NCBI GenBank assembly: GCA_031288285.1
Contig: JAITRQ010000005.1
Coordinates: 1 to 64,000 of the forward strand
DNA length: 64,000 nt
Source: Mycoplasmataceae bacterium
GTDB taxonomy: Bacteria > Bacillota_I > Bacilli_A > Mycoplasmatales > Mycoplasmoidaceae
Reading direction: 5' to 3'
Shown here: piece after piece, positions 1-48,089 of the stretch
Layout: each line of letters opens with the position of its first letter
How positions within the stretch are numbered: position 1 is the first letter of the stretch
The notes under the pieces: model-generated
Databases searched by the model: none
Told to the model about the DNA's origin: nothing
Seen by the model: the letters and a program-made list of their open reading frames with translations, nothing else
Position numbers and translations under genes: made by a program

Positions 1-1634
1 AATGCATATGAATCAATATATTCTAATGTTTTATCAACAACATTAATGGTTGAAAGTTTTTGAAAGTATCTAAAACCATTGCCGGCAATACCGTAAGTAT
101 TGTTATCCAACGTTACGGTCCTTAAACTGTCACGATTAGACAAATCAGTAGGACCATCTTGATACAAATAATCTTCACCTAAACATCATTTATGATGACA
201 GGTCTCGTTGGTTGATGTGTAATAAGAATTTGTAAATTTTAAATTTGTATAAAAAAATGCTCCCGATCCAATACTGGTCACATTATCCGGAATGCATAAC
301 TTATTAGTGACTGAAACGCATCCACTAAAAGCGTTATTACCAATCGTAATTAATGAACTTGGCAATACAATACTGCTCAATGATGTGCATTGTGAAAATG
401 CAGATTCACCTATTTCTTTAACACTATTAGGTAATTCAAGAGACCCTCCCAATGTTTTACATTGACTAAAAGCACTTGACGATACTTCTGCCAATCCATT
501 TGGTAAGTTAATATAACTTAATACAGAACATCCTGCAAATTCTGATTCACCTATGTAATAATTTTTACCACTTTGTAAATCCGTATCATTAAATAATATT
601 CCTATCCCCGGAAGAGAAGCACACCCAGCAAAAGTTGATACAGGAGAAGGAACTATTGTTGTCCCATCAGTTTGAATTGGAGCATTCTTGGTGTCATTAT
701 CGCTTCCAACTGCATGATAACTAATAGCCGTAGCAAGATTAGCACATCCCGAAAAGGATCTATCACTAATGTTATGAATTTCGGCTTTTCCACTACCTTC
801 TCCATCAAAAATTATTGCTGAAATATTATCACAATCCATGAATGATGCAGAGCCAATATCAACAGATGCACCAGCCTGAAATTCAATGGTGTCAATTTGC
901 GGCATTGCACCATCTTGTGAGAATAAACCCCTAAAAGCTCCATCAGCTACATTTTTAACCGAAGCAGGAATATATAAAATGTTACTTGCAGCTATCAATG
1001 CTCCATATTCGTTAGCAAAATTTTCTTTTTGGAAACCAAAGCCATTCAATGTTTCACTACCATCAGGATTAGTCGAAAAAACTAACGATTTTTCAGGAAG
1101 TGGTATTTCACGATCACGAAGACTTTCGGTAATGTCAGTTAAAACAAGATCGCCTTTGCGAATGTCACTCACCAATTCAGGATGATATAGCAATTGTAAA
1201 TAATCGTACGTATTAATCTTACGACCAATATCTGGCGAACTACTGGTTGTATTTTTTATGTAATTAAATTGATCAACAGTTTGTTGTTTAATCTCTGCCA
1301 ACAAACTTTGATCTGATTCACTAAGTTCACGTCCATCCTTGATTGCTTGTTTAGTTATTAAGTTGTCGGTGTAATCGTTAATTGTATCACTGTATGTATC
1401 TCAATCCGCTACTCCTGTTGTTCCTTGTACATAGTCATCAGGTGTACCATACGGTGAAGAACCGTCTAATTTAATGCCATTATCTATTTCATCATTATCA
1501 CTCGCTTTTAACTTGCTACTACTTGTCGTAGTATTATGATGCGCAAATAGACACGTACTCACAGTTCCAATACCAATAGCTGCCATCGCTAAAATGGTTC
1601 ATCCTATATTTTTTTTGTTGATTTCTTTTCTCAT
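1..1634 (-). CDS. BspA-like leucine-rich-repeat surface protein (3' end outside window)
   Basis: At least 544 residues are visible, and the frame runs off the left edge without a stop. TGA codons at 1401-1403 and 186-188 are read as Trp. The start ATG at 1632-1634 follows AAAAAGGATTAAAT, a weak ribosome site. The N-terminus (MRKEINKKNIGW, then a hydrophobic stretch ending VSTC) is an export signal. The Cys near residue 25 could be a lipidation site, but the preceding Thr is atypical. From about residue 150 on there are repeated LRR_5 (BspA/TpLRR) units of the form 'IGESAFSQCTSLSSIVLP', 'IGNNAFSGC', 'IGSGAF'. BspA-like repeats are known from surface adhesins of host-associated microbes. Adhesion is inferred here, not shown. 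It is divergent from dnaK and one of three or four LRR proteins in the window. Confidence 0.85.
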
Positions 1635-18212: not shown

Positions 18213-18596
18213 CGTGAGCAATTGATCGCTATACCTAGTGTGTAGAGGAAAGTCCGTGCTTGCACAGACTGCGATGTCTGTAATGTTTTTGTAGGTGTGA
18301 AACTATAAACCCTAGAGTCATTAGCTTGACTACGGCTGCGGAGTAATCTAAGTACTTTACTGTATATGATTACGAAGCATCAAAGTGCCACAGTGACGAA
18401 CAAAAGAGAAATCTTGAAGTGAAACGCGGTAAACCCCAAAAGCAAGAAACCTAAATATTGGTAAGGGAACGAATCACTAAGAATCAAATTAAGTGATTTG
18501 AATAATTGTGTATAACAATTGTTAGACAAATGATCAATACTGCTACTAGTGTGTTAAATACTAAATAGCGGCACAGAATACGGCTTACGCTCACGA
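18213..18596 (+). ncRNA. rnpB: RNase P RNA (M1 RNA homologue)
   Basis: About 384 nt. It contains the universal core GAGGAAAGTCCGTGCTTGCA near 18244 and, at the 3' side, ACAGAATACGGCTTACGCTC. The 5' CGTGAGC (18213-18219) pairs exactly with GCTCACG (18589-18595), defining helix P1 and both ends. This is the catalytic RNA that trims tRNA 5' leaders. Its protein partner gene rnpA is at 31996. It is followed by a terminator and two tRNA genes. Confidence 0.95.
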
Positions 18597-18719: not shown

Positions 18720-18794
18720 GGTGCCATAGCCAAGTGGTAAGGTCCGAAGCTGCAACCTTCGTATTCGTCAGTTCGAATCTGACTGGCACCTCCA
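18720..18794 (+). tRNA. tRNA-Cys (GCA)
   Basis: 75 nt including an encoded CCA. Acceptor GGTGCCA pairs with TGGCACC. The anticodon loop CTGCAAC gives GCA. The T arm GTTCGAATC is standard. Confidence 0.96.
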
Positions 18795-18800
18795 TTATAT

Positions 18801-18877
18801 GCGCCCATAGCTCAATTGGACAGAGCGCTTGGCTACGAACCAAGAGGTTGTGGGTTCAACTCCTGCTGGGCGCGCCA
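18801..18877 (+). tRNA. tRNA-Arg (ACG)
   Basis: 77 nt with encoded CCA. Acceptor GCGCCCA pairs with TGGGCGC. The anticodon loop CTACGAA gives ACG (read as ICG). It lies 6 bp after tRNA-Cys, so the two are probably co-transcribed. Confidence 0.95.
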
Positions 18878-18890
18878 TATCAATTATTTG

Positions 18891-18929
18891 ATCTCACATT
18901 TTATTTTCTTGTAGATGTGAGATTTTTTT
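18891..18929 (+). terminator. rho-independent terminator after the tRNA pair
   Basis: ATCTCACAT (18891-18899) pairs perfectly with ATGTGAGAT (18915-18923) and is followed by T7. The end of its T tract overlaps the TTGACA -35 element of the next gene. Confidence 0.88.
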
Positions 18930-18969
18930 GACAATCTTTTTTTTTTTTTTTTGTTTATGGAAATATAAT
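18928..18969 (+). promoter_or_regulatory. candidate phase-variable promoter with T16 tract
   Basis: A perfect TTGACA (18928-18933) and a perfect TATAAT (18964-18969) are separated by 30 bp that contain an uninterrupted run of 16 T (18937-18952). A normal spacer is 16-18 bp, so as written the promoter should be poorly active. Slippage in the tract would change the spacing. The arrangement resembles the homopolymer in the -35/-10 spacer of the vlp genes of Mycoplasma hyorhinis (established precedent). Operation here is inferred. Confidence 0.6.
18937..18952 (+). repeat. T16 homopolymer tract
   Basis: Sixteen consecutive T lie in the promoter region of the LRR surface gene at 18985. On the sense strand it is the same length as the tract upstream of the LRR lipoprotein at 25583. 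Confidence 0.95.
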
Positions 18970-18984
18970 CATGATTACAATACA

Positions 18985-20463
18985 ATGGTAACCAAAAAGC
19001 ATTGATTGCATTGAACTACTATCAGTTTTGTAGCCATCGTTGCTACAATGTGTATGGGTATTACTTTATCTACTCATACTAATTCTTTTATTACTTTAAA
19101 ATCACCAAATCGCAATGCCATAAATGATGATTTCACTATTGACGATGCAGCATTTTTGACTAGTTGTGGATTAGATCCTGCCGATGGTAAAAGCAATCTT
19201 AAAGCAACAATTACCAAAGAGGTATCGTGGGATAAAAAAAATAACCAAATTTATGGTGAAGTATCATTAGCGGCTGAACAACCAGATTCAATCTCTACCA
19301 TCACTTCTTCTACAAGTGACCCGTTTTACCAAGAAGGATTTAACATCCCCACAGTTGTAAGGCAAAAGATCACCACAAATGGTCAAAGTACTTTTTATAA
19401 CTATAACGTTACCACATTAACTGATAATGCATTTAAATCTGCTATCCACTTAGGGGGTGATTTAACCATTTCTAATTCAATAACAAGCGTAGGTACAAAT
19501 GCATTTGATGGCTGTTCGGGTCTTAAAAAATTAGTAATTAATGCAAACATGGATAATTGAGTGAACACATTCGTTGGATGCAGTGCACTCAACACAATCA
19601 CTATTAACGGAAATATGAATAAATGCGAGAATTGCTTCCCTGAATATCCAGATTCTGTCTCTCAATTAGAAATTAATCGTAATATTGGCAAAGATAATAT
19701 CGATTGTTTCGGTGCCATTTGAAACACCATTATTATCGGCGAAACAGTAACTAATATTGCTGTACCAATTTGTCTTAATCTATCAAATGCAACTAACATT
19801 TTATTTTGTGGTCCGTTGCCAATCATGCCCGCAACTGTATTTAATACCCAAGATATTTCTAAATATAATGCTATTTGAATAAATAAAACTTTTCAGCAGG
19901 CGTATCAAACATTTTTCCCCAATTTTCATACCGTTGATAAATTGTTAGTTAATGGCTATTTTATTGGTCCAAAAACTTTCCCCAAAACTTACCAATATGA
20001 TTATTACAATAATAATCAACCATACAATGCGGTACCTGATAGAGCTTTTGACACCTTAATGCAAAGCACTATCCCTACACCCATATCTCCGGCACACATT
20101 ATTTCATCGTCATTAACATATCGCTTAGTAAATGCACCAAGTTGAGTCTATATTCAAATGATAAATAGTTATCCCGTAATTTATTGAAATAACGCTACCA
20201 CTAGTGGTAAATTTACAATTTATATGACCCAATGTTATCAATACATTATTGAATCTGAAAATCAGCGAAAAACCTATTACACCGATACATACCACTTATC
20301 TTATCCAATCTATTTTGAAATCTTGCCTATTTATACTACCCAAACCATATACGATACTATGGGAGTATTTGCTTTAGTAATGGTTACTATCCTAACCGGT
20401 TGTTTAATTGCCAATGCAGCAATTAAAAAATATAGTAAACCTAAGAAAAGGAAAAAATCATAA
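18985..20463 (+). CDS. LRR (BspA-like) membrane-anchored surface protein
   Basis: 492 residues. The N-terminal signal (MVTKKHWLHW, then a hydrophobic span) has no lipobox. LRR_5-type units follow from about residue 130: TLTDNAFKSAIHLGG, SVGTNAFDGCSGLKKLVIN, FVGCSALNTITI. The protein ends with a membrane span (about 460-480) and a basic tail KKYSKPKKRKKS, so it should sit outside the cell, anchored at its C-terminus. TGA is Trp. The start ATG (18985) is the first in frame after the TATAAT. The T16 promoter tract upstream suggests on/off variation. The stop overlaps the next start (TAATG), coupling it to the membrane protein at 20463. Confidence 0.85.
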
Positions 20464-21254
20464 TGCTTTGAAGCCCAGGACACATTAAAATATTATTGCC
20501 ATTGATATTAGCTACAATTATTTTTTTAATATTCCTATATAGATATTATCGCAAACATCCAGAAAAAAATAAATGTATACCGTTCGTGTATGTCACAATA
20601 CTGATGTTAACTGGCGAAGCAGTTAAACAACTTGTTAATTTTTTTGGTACACATCCTTTTGATGTTTGGGCATTACCATTTACTTTCTGTGCCTCTAATC
20701 TCATTTGGTATTCAGTCTTGTCTTTCACCAAAAAACACGATACTAGATTATGTAAAACTAGCTGCGCATTAGCCTATGCTATCAGCATTATAGTGGGGGT
20801 TATGATTATCATTCGTCCCGATTCTGAATTTGGTATTTCTAATGATGGTAATGTCATGGAAAATTACAATAGGTTTTGGGGGTTAATGTATCACGTTTTT
20901 GAAGTGTTTGCTGTCGTGTGATTAATTATTTGAAAACCGTGTAAATTTCAATGGAAAGACGCTATATATATCTTCCCTTCAGTATTAATGGTATTAATAT
21001 TTATGGGTGGAGTAAGTTGAATATTTGATGAAAACTGAACACAAATGTTACATTCTGATTATTATCTATTCATTCTTCCTGAAAGTATGTTCTACACCCC
21101 TTTATTCACGGTGGGTGTTATATGCTGTGATTTTGCTGTTTTTGTTGTGGGCTTTTCTCTTGGAATGTGTCTATACAAATGAGTGATACCGTATATATCG
21201 AAACAAATACAAAAGTATCATTGAATAGACAAATTGACACGCCGTATTAAATAG
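20463..21254 (+). CDS. YwaF/TP0381-like integral membrane protein
   Basis: 263 residues with about seven hydrophobic spans. The segment GEAVKQLVNFF, followed by WALPFTFCAS, fits the intg_mem_TP0381 / YwaF family (Glu-x-x-Lys then LP-x-x-x-C), whose role is unknown. The start overlaps the LRR gene stop by one base (TAATG), so it probably depends on that transcript and would share its T16-controlled promoter. It ends one base before the convergent glf stop codon. A relative occurs at 44635. Confidence 0.75.
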
Positions 21255-24560: not shown

Positions 24561-24854
<294 letters not shown>

Positions 24855-24920
24855 TTAAAATCATCACTAAATTGTAACTTCAAAAAAGGATACAGTTTTA
24901 TGAAAAACTATATAAATGAA

Positions 24921-25583
24921 TTAAACTAGTGGGATTATTCAAGTACTTGGTAACCCTTTGAATGTACCTATTGTGATTCCAAGACCAGGATTGGGAGGTA
25001 CGATAACCGCCCCCCCCAAACTGTTAAAACCAGAAAAAGCATCATTACCGATTGTTGGTATTGCAGTTCAAGTAGAAGCGTTAATAATATTAAAACCTAC
25101 ACACCCAGAAAATCCCATATAACCAATATTATCTACTGAACTAGGAATTGTTAGCATCCCGGTAAGTCCTGAGCAATCCTCGAATGCATATTGACCAATT
25201 GTATTTAAATTAATAGCAATAGTTAAATCGAGATTAGTAATGGTGTGGTAAGCATCACCATTGTTAAATGCGTCGCGAAATGCATTATTAGCAATTGATG
25301 TTACGTTGTATTGAGTATCACCATCCAAAAATACAGGTGGTATTCATAATGTATTGTAGGCATCTAAATCAAGATCGCTTTTCAATCCGGTGATAGTTAA
25401 TGAATTACCATTTTCATCTCAATCGAAATATTCCTTAGTAAACGGAATAGAACCTTCTGGTGGGGTTGGCCCTGGTGGGTTTGAATTCTTACTACAGCTA
25501 GTAGTTGAAATGAGCATTCCGACTCCAAAAATCCCCAAAATTACACTTGGAACAACACTCAATATTCATTTGTTTTTTTTCAT
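24921..25583 (-). CDS. small LRR lipoprotein
   Basis: 220 residues. A clear lipoprotein signal (MKKNKWILSVV, then a hydrophobic core, lipobox TTSC-S) is followed by a Pro-rich linker NPPGPTPPEGS. There are then a few LRR_5 units: SIANNAFRD, TIGQYAFEDCSGLTGMLTIP, NIGYMGFSGC, TIGNDAFSGF. It is much shorter than usual for BspA-like proteins, and a remnant of an LRR C-terminus lies just downstream. A G8 run (C8 at 25010-25017) lies within the coding part near the 3' end; as written it is in frame. Upstream there is a T16 tract on the sense strand, next to a TATATT -10. A surface-exposed, possibly switchable protein is inferred. Confidence 0.82.
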
Positions 25584-25617: not shown

Positions 25618-25643
25618 AATATACCTCAAAAAAAAAAAAAAAA
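25618..25643 (-). promoter_or_regulatory. LRR lipoprotein promoter region with T16 tract
   Basis: On the minus strand a run of 16 T (A16 at 25628-25643) is followed by GAGG and TATATT (25618-25623), a plausible -10, about 35 bp before the ATG. The tract occupies the spacer and reaches the -35 position. No TTGACA-like -35 is obvious upstream. The layout is similar to the gene at 18985. Confidence 0.5.
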
Positions 25644-46999: not shown

Positions 47000-48089
47000 T
47001 TATTGGATTTTGTTAGTTAGAACTAATGCAGTTCTGCTAAATTTGTTAATGACATATTGAAGTAGTAGGCTAACAATGATGGAAAATAGAATAGTCAAAA
47101 TTAGTACTGTCATGCAAAAAGCCACACTATAGTTCATATGAATATTTTGGTAGAGAACGATACTCACCGTTTTGTGCAATAAATATACACCCAAAGATAT
47201 TTTGCCCGATCAAGAAAATATGAATAATAATATTTTGCTCTTGGGTCTAATAAAATAGAAAATAACAAATAAACCACAGCAAAAGGCTAATGCTGACAAC
47301 GAGGATGACTCTCCATAGAAACTTATAAAATTATTGTTATATCATGTACTTCATGACTGGTTATATCCTAGACTTCAAGATCCTTTATAGAAAACACAAT
47401 AAAATAAAATGACAATACTAATTGCTAATACTGAACCACATAAAAAAATTCTATTTTTTAATGGACTATTAGTATTAGTAAGTAAATGAAGTCGAATAAA
47501 TGCACCAATCATATACATGATTGATAAGAAAAATATAGATTTTCAAATATCAAAATTCATGAAATTTACTTCTTCACCAATATAACGATTGATAGCCCAT
47601 AACATAAAGATTAAAATTAATAAGTATCATCATTTTAAAACCTTACATAATTTATTAATAGCGCTAGATAGACAAACCACAAAGAAATAACTAACAACAA
47701 ATCACCAATGCTGCATAACTGGGTTTTGGGAATTAGAAAATTCTAAATATTGGTACCAATTATCTCCATTAAGTTTGTAACCAAAACAACAATATGCTAA
47801 AAATATTGCAAATAATCACCAAACAAAAAGTGTATTAAATGATGAGAAAATTCTTTTACCTAAGTGCGAAGAAGAATTTACAATGAAAAATCCCGAAATG
47901 ATCATAAATCCGGCCACAGCGTAAGTATGGCAGAATATGTCCATTCAATGCTGCTGATCCCCCCCCCCAGGCAGCATCGCCGGCACAATGATTCAATAAA
48001 ATTGAAATAGCAAAAAATAAACGCAATAATTCCAAACCAATATATTGATACCGTTTTTTATCGATTACTTGAAATTTATGTGTTAACAT
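47000..48089 (-). CDS. acyltransferase-3 family membrane protein, out of frame at a G10 tract
   Basis: The N-terminal frame (MLTHKFQVIDKKRYQYIGLE, LLRLFFAISILLNH) reads into ten G (C10 at 47959-47968). The rest of the protein is found one base out of register: HWMDIFCHTYAVAGFMIISG, then about nine membrane spans to SGKISLGVYLLHKTV and a TAA at 47000-47002. Removing one G (or adding two) would join both parts into about 362 residues typical of O-acyltransferases that acylate surface sugars or lipids. The written sequence is therefore an off state, or a base-call error in the tract. TGA is Trp throughout. Confidence 0.8.
47959..47968 (+). repeat. C10 (G10 on coding strand) homopolymer inside the acyltransferase gene
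   Basis: Ten consecutive C occur in an otherwise very AT-rich region, exactly where the reading frame breaks. This is a strong slippage hotspot. Confidence 0.95.

Follow-up and report, generated by a model that had tools for sequence, protein, structure and literature searches.

A T-tract ahead of a BspA-type LRR gene as a candidate slippage-prone promoter element, one of about 28 such tracts in a mollicute-like genome

The run of 16 T's (T16) ahead of a BspA-type LRR protein gene is probably (we put this at about 0.6) a slippage-prone promoter element that tunes an LRR operon, and would be one of about 28 hypermutable T-tracts in the same genome. Five direct observations form the basis of this reading: the position of the tract, its membership of a genome-wide class, the bimodality of run lengths, the placement of the -10 hexamer and the types of genes that follow. 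The 64,000-nucleotide stretch of DNA that we analysed (the window) belongs to the assembly of an uncultured mollicute-like genome (534,199 bases in 17 contigs, 51.4% complete, UGA read as Trp). The locus is laid out as follows, in window coordinates.

18214-18591: RNase P RNA, upstream of the tRNA-Cys/tRNA-Arg pair
18720-18794, plus strand: tRNA-Cys, in the operon directly upstream of the site (18720..18877)
18801-18877, plus strand: tRNA-Arg, in the same operon
18890..18929, plus strand: intrinsic-terminator-like hairpin and U-tract of the tRNA operon, following tRNA-Arg
18928..18933, plus strand: perfect TTGACA, most likely incidental
18937..18952, plus strand: T16 tract, the proposed slippage-prone promoter element
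18964..18969, plus strand: TATAAT, the proposed -10; the LRR ATG lies 16 nt further, a short leader like those of other genes in the window
18985..20463, plus strand: BspA-type LRR protein gene, 492 aa, ORF read with genetic code 4 (UGA = Trp)
20463..21254, plus strand: TMEM164/YwaF-like membrane protein gene, 263 aa, its start overlapping the LRR stop codon

The original prediction had described a perfect TTGACA and a perfect TATAAT with T16 between them and 30 bp from one hexamer to the other, and the letters at 18928-18969, read directly, are exactly these. With a spacer outside 16-18, the site does not appear among the hits of a standard promoter scan of the window. The same prediction joined an LRR gene to a YwaF-like gene by an overlap, and this too was confirmed by the ORFs and by Pfam scores: the LRR ORF runs from the ATG at 18985 to a TAA at 20461-20463 that shares a base with the ATG opening the next ORF at 20463, and the two products scored above the gathering cut-offs of the LRR_5/BspA-type family (PF13306; 34.9 bits, cut-off 27.7) and the TMEM164 family (PF14808; 36.7 bits, cut-off 25), respectively. 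The 263-aa protein had no match in NCBIfam. We take YwaF to belong with the TMEM164 family (PF14808). The 492-aa LRR protein has an N-terminal hydrophobic signal/anchor segment and a C-terminal hydrophobic segment with a basic tail, and a search of it for a lipobox found none; it is presumably located at the surface.

We considered TTGACA as a meaningful -35 and rejected it; it is most likely an incidental by-product of the upstream terminator, because it overlaps the terminator T-run, because such a pair of hexamers is expected by chance, and because the other promoters examined in the window carry no -35 signal. Its TT are the last two T's of the T-run that ends the tRNA-Arg terminator-like hairpin (fold -14.1 kcal/mol, z -3.3). 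The two strands of the window hold 45 TTGACA and 65 TATAAT; by hand arithmetic these counts predict about 0.7 pairs on the same strand with a spacing of 10-40, against the one seen. The co-occurrence of two perfect hexamers is thus unremarkable, and it is T16 that lies beyond chance. A control set of 22 other TATAAT sites was chosen by hand from the 65 for lying ahead of genes, with two or three doubtful choices among them; there, the closest match to TTGACA at spacers of 16-18 averaged 2.59 of 6 positions, versus 2.62 in shuffles. The available part of a report on a promoter screen in M. pneumoniae describes no strong -35 (PMC5573727). The TATAAT at 18964-18969 is credible as a -10 with a short leader, because the 16 nt to the LRR ATG match the spacing at other promoters of the window, the ATG lying 9-16 nt after TATAAT at 10 of the 18 control sites that precede protein genes. 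Transcription would start from this hexamer; if TATAAT occupies -12 to -7, the tract spans about -24 to -39, with 11 nt between T16 and its -10.

Only two A/T runs of at least 9 occur in the window, both of exactly 16 and each ahead of an LRR gene; a first-order model of the window predicts about 11.7 runs of at least 9 and 0.013 of at least 16 (0.006 for T-runs of at least 16). These expectations, together with the length class found across the genome, led us to discard a chance origin of T16. The second tract and its neighborhood read as follows.

25628..25643, minus strand: the other T16 tract in the window, of class A, with GAGG-TATATT behind it
24921..25583, minus strand: LRR lipoprotein gene behind the second T16 tract
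24815..24887, minus strand: decayed class B promoter, with T6, TACAAT in place of TATAAT, and (CA)15

Only some LRR genes carry such a tract. The window's third LRR-matching gene, at its left edge (3-1634, minus strand), lacks any tract of at least 9 upstream, and no tract precedes the LRR matches on contigs C4, C5 and C17 and at the left edge of C12.

Across both strands of the whole assembly we found 28 T-runs of at least 14 (one T14, nine T15, thirteen T16 and five T17). Contig ends truncate three of the T15, and the runs at C3:103 and C10:103 probably represent a single locus. There were no runs of 10-13 T/A anywhere in the assembly, the count of 190 T10 words being just the sum of L-9 over the 28; scaling of the window model gives an expectation of about 37 runs of at least 10 and 0.8 of at least 14. 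Long T/A homopolymers are thus absent from this genome save for this one class, since all 28 runs of at least 10 fall between 14 and 17. Most of the tracts belong to two layouts: class A, in which the T-tract is followed by GAGA, TATATT, a Shine-Dalgarno-like stretch and a lipoprotein start, and class B, in which it is followed by GAAGT, TATAAT, a leader with (CA)n and a 445-aa type of surface protein. A -10-like hexamer lies 0-12 nt downstream in 22 of the 27 tracts with downstream sequence; the corresponding controls gave 3/26 just upstream, 1/27 at 40-52 nt and a mean of 3.0 in shuffled (resampled) sequence. In most of the other tracts the -10 follows at 2-6 nt, so the LRR promoter with its 11 nt is an outlier. 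The stricter pattern T14-GAN{2,3}-TATAWT occurs at 17 places in the assembly and its reversed control at none.

We assigned an ORF start by hand behind 21 of the 27 tracts and could assign none behind the other 6. A signal- or membrane-type N-terminus, called by a crude hydrophobicity cut-off of 1.8, stands behind 18 of the 27, compared with 12 of 54 ORFs in the window background at the same cut-off; these 18 include one judged by family resemblance as its contig ends (tract #5, C4:191), one at 1.77, just below the cut-off (tract #27, C16:1), and one whose ORF is out of frame further on (tract #20, C13:1008). One tract precedes a 33-aa remnant of a signal/membrane-type gene, and another (tract #4, C3:27312) an enzyme-like ORF whose residues 1-45 score 2.08, above the cut-off. 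A set of tracts placed mostly before surface-type genes fits phase-variable promoters, and to this extent the phase-variable promoter of the original prediction stands, T16 being part of a genome-wide promoter set found mostly at surface-type genes; the part of it that assigned the switched -35 to TTGACA does not.

Further details were noted at several tracts of the set. A T15 at C7:22069-22083 lies 22 nt before a gene that we named rpmG-like (ribosomal protein L33-like) from sequence alone, an odd partner for a surface-type switch. At C10:39087-39344 a pair of class B promoters points inward across 225 bp that contain no sizeable gene, the gene behind the tract at C13:1008 goes out of frame after a local duplication, and the class A LRR lipoprotein genes at C13:1-2013 have as many as 8 consecutive G within the part that codes for the signal peptide.

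Contigs C3 and C10 have 221 bp in common at their ends, identical except for T17 versus T16. This could represent a length-polymorphic tract, or a read or assembly error; it is the only allele pair seen, and it concerns another tract next to a tRNA, not the LRR locus. Paralogous tracts within the genome differ in length despite near-identical flanks. In the decayed class B copy (24815-24887) the leader hairpin is absent and the structural gene is not intact. Slippage of T16 at the LRR locus, and an effect of its length on transcription, are what we propose from these sequence features.

A similar arrangement occurs in two relatives, G009 and G022. The strict pattern T14-GAN{2,3}-TATAWT was present in 2 of 36 genus genomes, namely our own and G009. 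Counting tracts with downstream sequence, a -10 follows 7 of 8 in G009 and all 16 in G022. G022 carries 16 paralogous genes with tracts of T15-T21 placed 28-33 nt before the starts of one protein family, the one tested member of which is a BspA-type LRR protein; the member at C1:133422 is apparently broken near its start. TTG(C/T)G abuts the tract in these G022 promoters, giving by hand arithmetic a spacer of about L+1, such that T16 corresponds to 17 bp, and a spacer switch is plausible there. In G023 only 4 of 7 tracts are promoter-like by a loose rule (2 with an exact TATAAT), and the G023 tracts are mostly not promoter-like; the tract-promoter layout is not universal in the genus. The tRNA-Cys/tRNA-Arg pair is conserved in the genus (22 of 23 relative loci read, the exception holding only the rnpB part), and within 600 nt behind the pair in the 23 relative loci there was no run of at least 10 and no T-tract. 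We looked in the relatives for the LRR plus YwaF locus, or for a tract at the same place, and found neither; matches of the LRR protein to other proteins were partial and mainly over the repeats. Accordingly no ortholog shows a length change at the LRR locus, because no relative has a tract there.

In the mechanism that we favor, T16 sits just upstream of a TATAAT that would act as the -10 in a species in which -35 boxes look unimportant, and this -10 would drive an mRNA with a short leader encoding the LRR surface protein and then, by translational overlap, the TMEM164/YwaF-like protein. Slipped-strand replication would add or remove T's in the tract; the length of the tract would in turn set DNA shape and helical phase at about -24 to -39, and through these the binding of RNA polymerase. 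The outcome would be a graded or on/off expression dial for the LRR operon. We read such an element as closer to the rheostat of the H. pylori sabA promoter than to a switch built on a 17-bp spacer. Several observations count against a dial: the spacing of T16 to its -10 is an outlier, some tracts are followed by an rpmG-like gene, an enzyme-like ORF or no ORF, and there are LRR genes without tracts.

Three other explanations have to be weighed against this dial. The tract may be fixed or drifting silently, perhaps bending the DNA or helping RNA polymerase, with expression independent of its length. This is unlikely in our view but has a precedent in the accessible part of a report on M. agalactiae (PMC2268961), in which phase-locked mutants indicated no role in switching for the T-tract that directly precedes the vpma -10; that report is the strongest reason for caution on the tuning reading. 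The narrow T14-T17 range in the genome itself agrees with a silent part, whereas the T15-T21 range among the G022 paralogs does not, and neither the missing runs of 10-13 nor the clustering at surface-type genes is explained by a silent spacer. The vpma promoter also belongs to a mollicute surface-protein gene and resembles ours in the homopolymeric T directly before its -10, but it is a single promoter at a locus switched by Xer1 recombination, compared with about 28 separate tracts here (PMC2268961).

The original prediction had itself supposed a switch through the distance between TTGACA and the -10; in a variant of this on/off model the true -35 would be a weak TTG box abutting the tract. 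Switches of this kind are described for vlp, maa2 and vmm in the accessible text of two reports (PMC2268961, PMC10502178), a TTG-like box abuts many tracts of our genome (at one of which, C8:4307, a TTGACA also lies close by), and in G022 the abutting TTG(C/T)G arrives at 17 bp with T16. At the LRR locus, however, TTGACA is the tail of a terminator, the layout TTGACA-tract-TATAAT is not common to the tract class, and the 22 other TATAAT sites score no better than shuffles. A classical spacer switch is unlikely here because a 17-bp spacer would require T3, and no observed tract is near that length, none being shorter than 14. We therefore consider this switch quite improbable at this promoter. 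As for T16 having no connection with this promoter, and having arisen by chance or by lengthening of the tRNA terminator, the tract does begin only 8 nt after the terminator T-run; yet its length class is common to 28 tracts, most of them without an adjoining terminator, and the small expectation for such T-runs in the window also stands against it, making this very unlikely.

That promoter repeats switch mollicute surface genes is already known. The available portions of the literature describe such repeats in M. hyorhinis vlp, M. arthritidis maa2 and M. mycoides vmm (PMC2268961, PMC10502178), which share with our set the simple repeats in surface-gene promoters and the gene families with a common promoter, and differ in that switching was shown there, with poly-A in vlp, while here no -35 seems to be in use and the 30-bp spacing looks unsuitable. 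For the H. pylori sabA promoter, the accessible part of the report describes a T-tract rheostat with measurements of how length affects RNA polymerase binding (PMC4081817); the likeness lies in a T-tract of similar length (T13-T17 being commonest in sabA) close to position -35 in the promoter of a surface protein, and the difference in that our case is known from sequence and comes from an unrelated lineage. Candidatus Mycoplasma girerdii, as far as the available text on it goes (PMC5476646), is a metagenomic mollicute that likewise has a BspA-type LRR repertoire with length-variable repeats, but these are for the most part dinucleotide repeats that are expected to work through frameshifts, in contrast to the mononucleotide promoter tracts described here. 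A genome-wide set of such T-tract promoters was not found in the literature searched, which included few subscription papers. If the proposed dial is real, the expression state of some 28 loci, the majority of them surface genes, could be read from tract length in metagenomic data. The gap in run lengths (none of 10-13, 28 of 14-17) is also a simple signature by which to find promoter contingency loci in other genomes; it was this signature that pointed to the 16-member G022 family with T15-T21.

The leaders of the class B promoters have a second repeat, which has no direct bearing on the LRR gene at 18985..20463. The intact-hairpin copies in our genome lie at:

C8:11176-11355: class B leader
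C14:569-746: class B leader
C16:1-167: class B leader
C16:39620-39803: class B leader

In class B leaders an ATG 7 nt after TATAAT opens a frame with (CA)8 to (CA)19, followed by a terminator-like hairpin (-15.7 kcal/mol, z -4.7 for the C8 copy; -10.7 kcal/mol, z -2.8 for the C14 copy). One reading frame in three passes the hairpin and stops just before the structural ATG, and this frame is open in all four copies (C8, C14, and the start and end of C16); as an argument for selection this is weak, the copies being recent duplicates and the stretch short. By hand frame arithmetic, the assembled sequence puts none of the four in the read-through frame. We hypothesize that the number of CA units in the leader ORF determines whether translation passes the hairpin, in the manner of the Streptococcus gallolyticus pil1 attenuator. 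In the accessible part of that report (PMC3894217) a leader-ORF repeat likewise precedes a terminator-like hairpin, the differences being GCAGA repeats at one locus there and (CA)n plus a promoter T-tract in class B. It is a more speculative and rather doubtful extension that the surface coat is largely run from -35-less promoters set only by T-tracts, with the class B (CA)n attenuator in series as a two-input random gate.

A G10 tract was also observed in the window (47959-47968, minus strand), within a gene that we take from its N-terminal sequence to be acyltransferase-like; the N-terminal part and the rest are in different frames, and the gene is likely a frameshift contingency locus that is OFF in the assembly.
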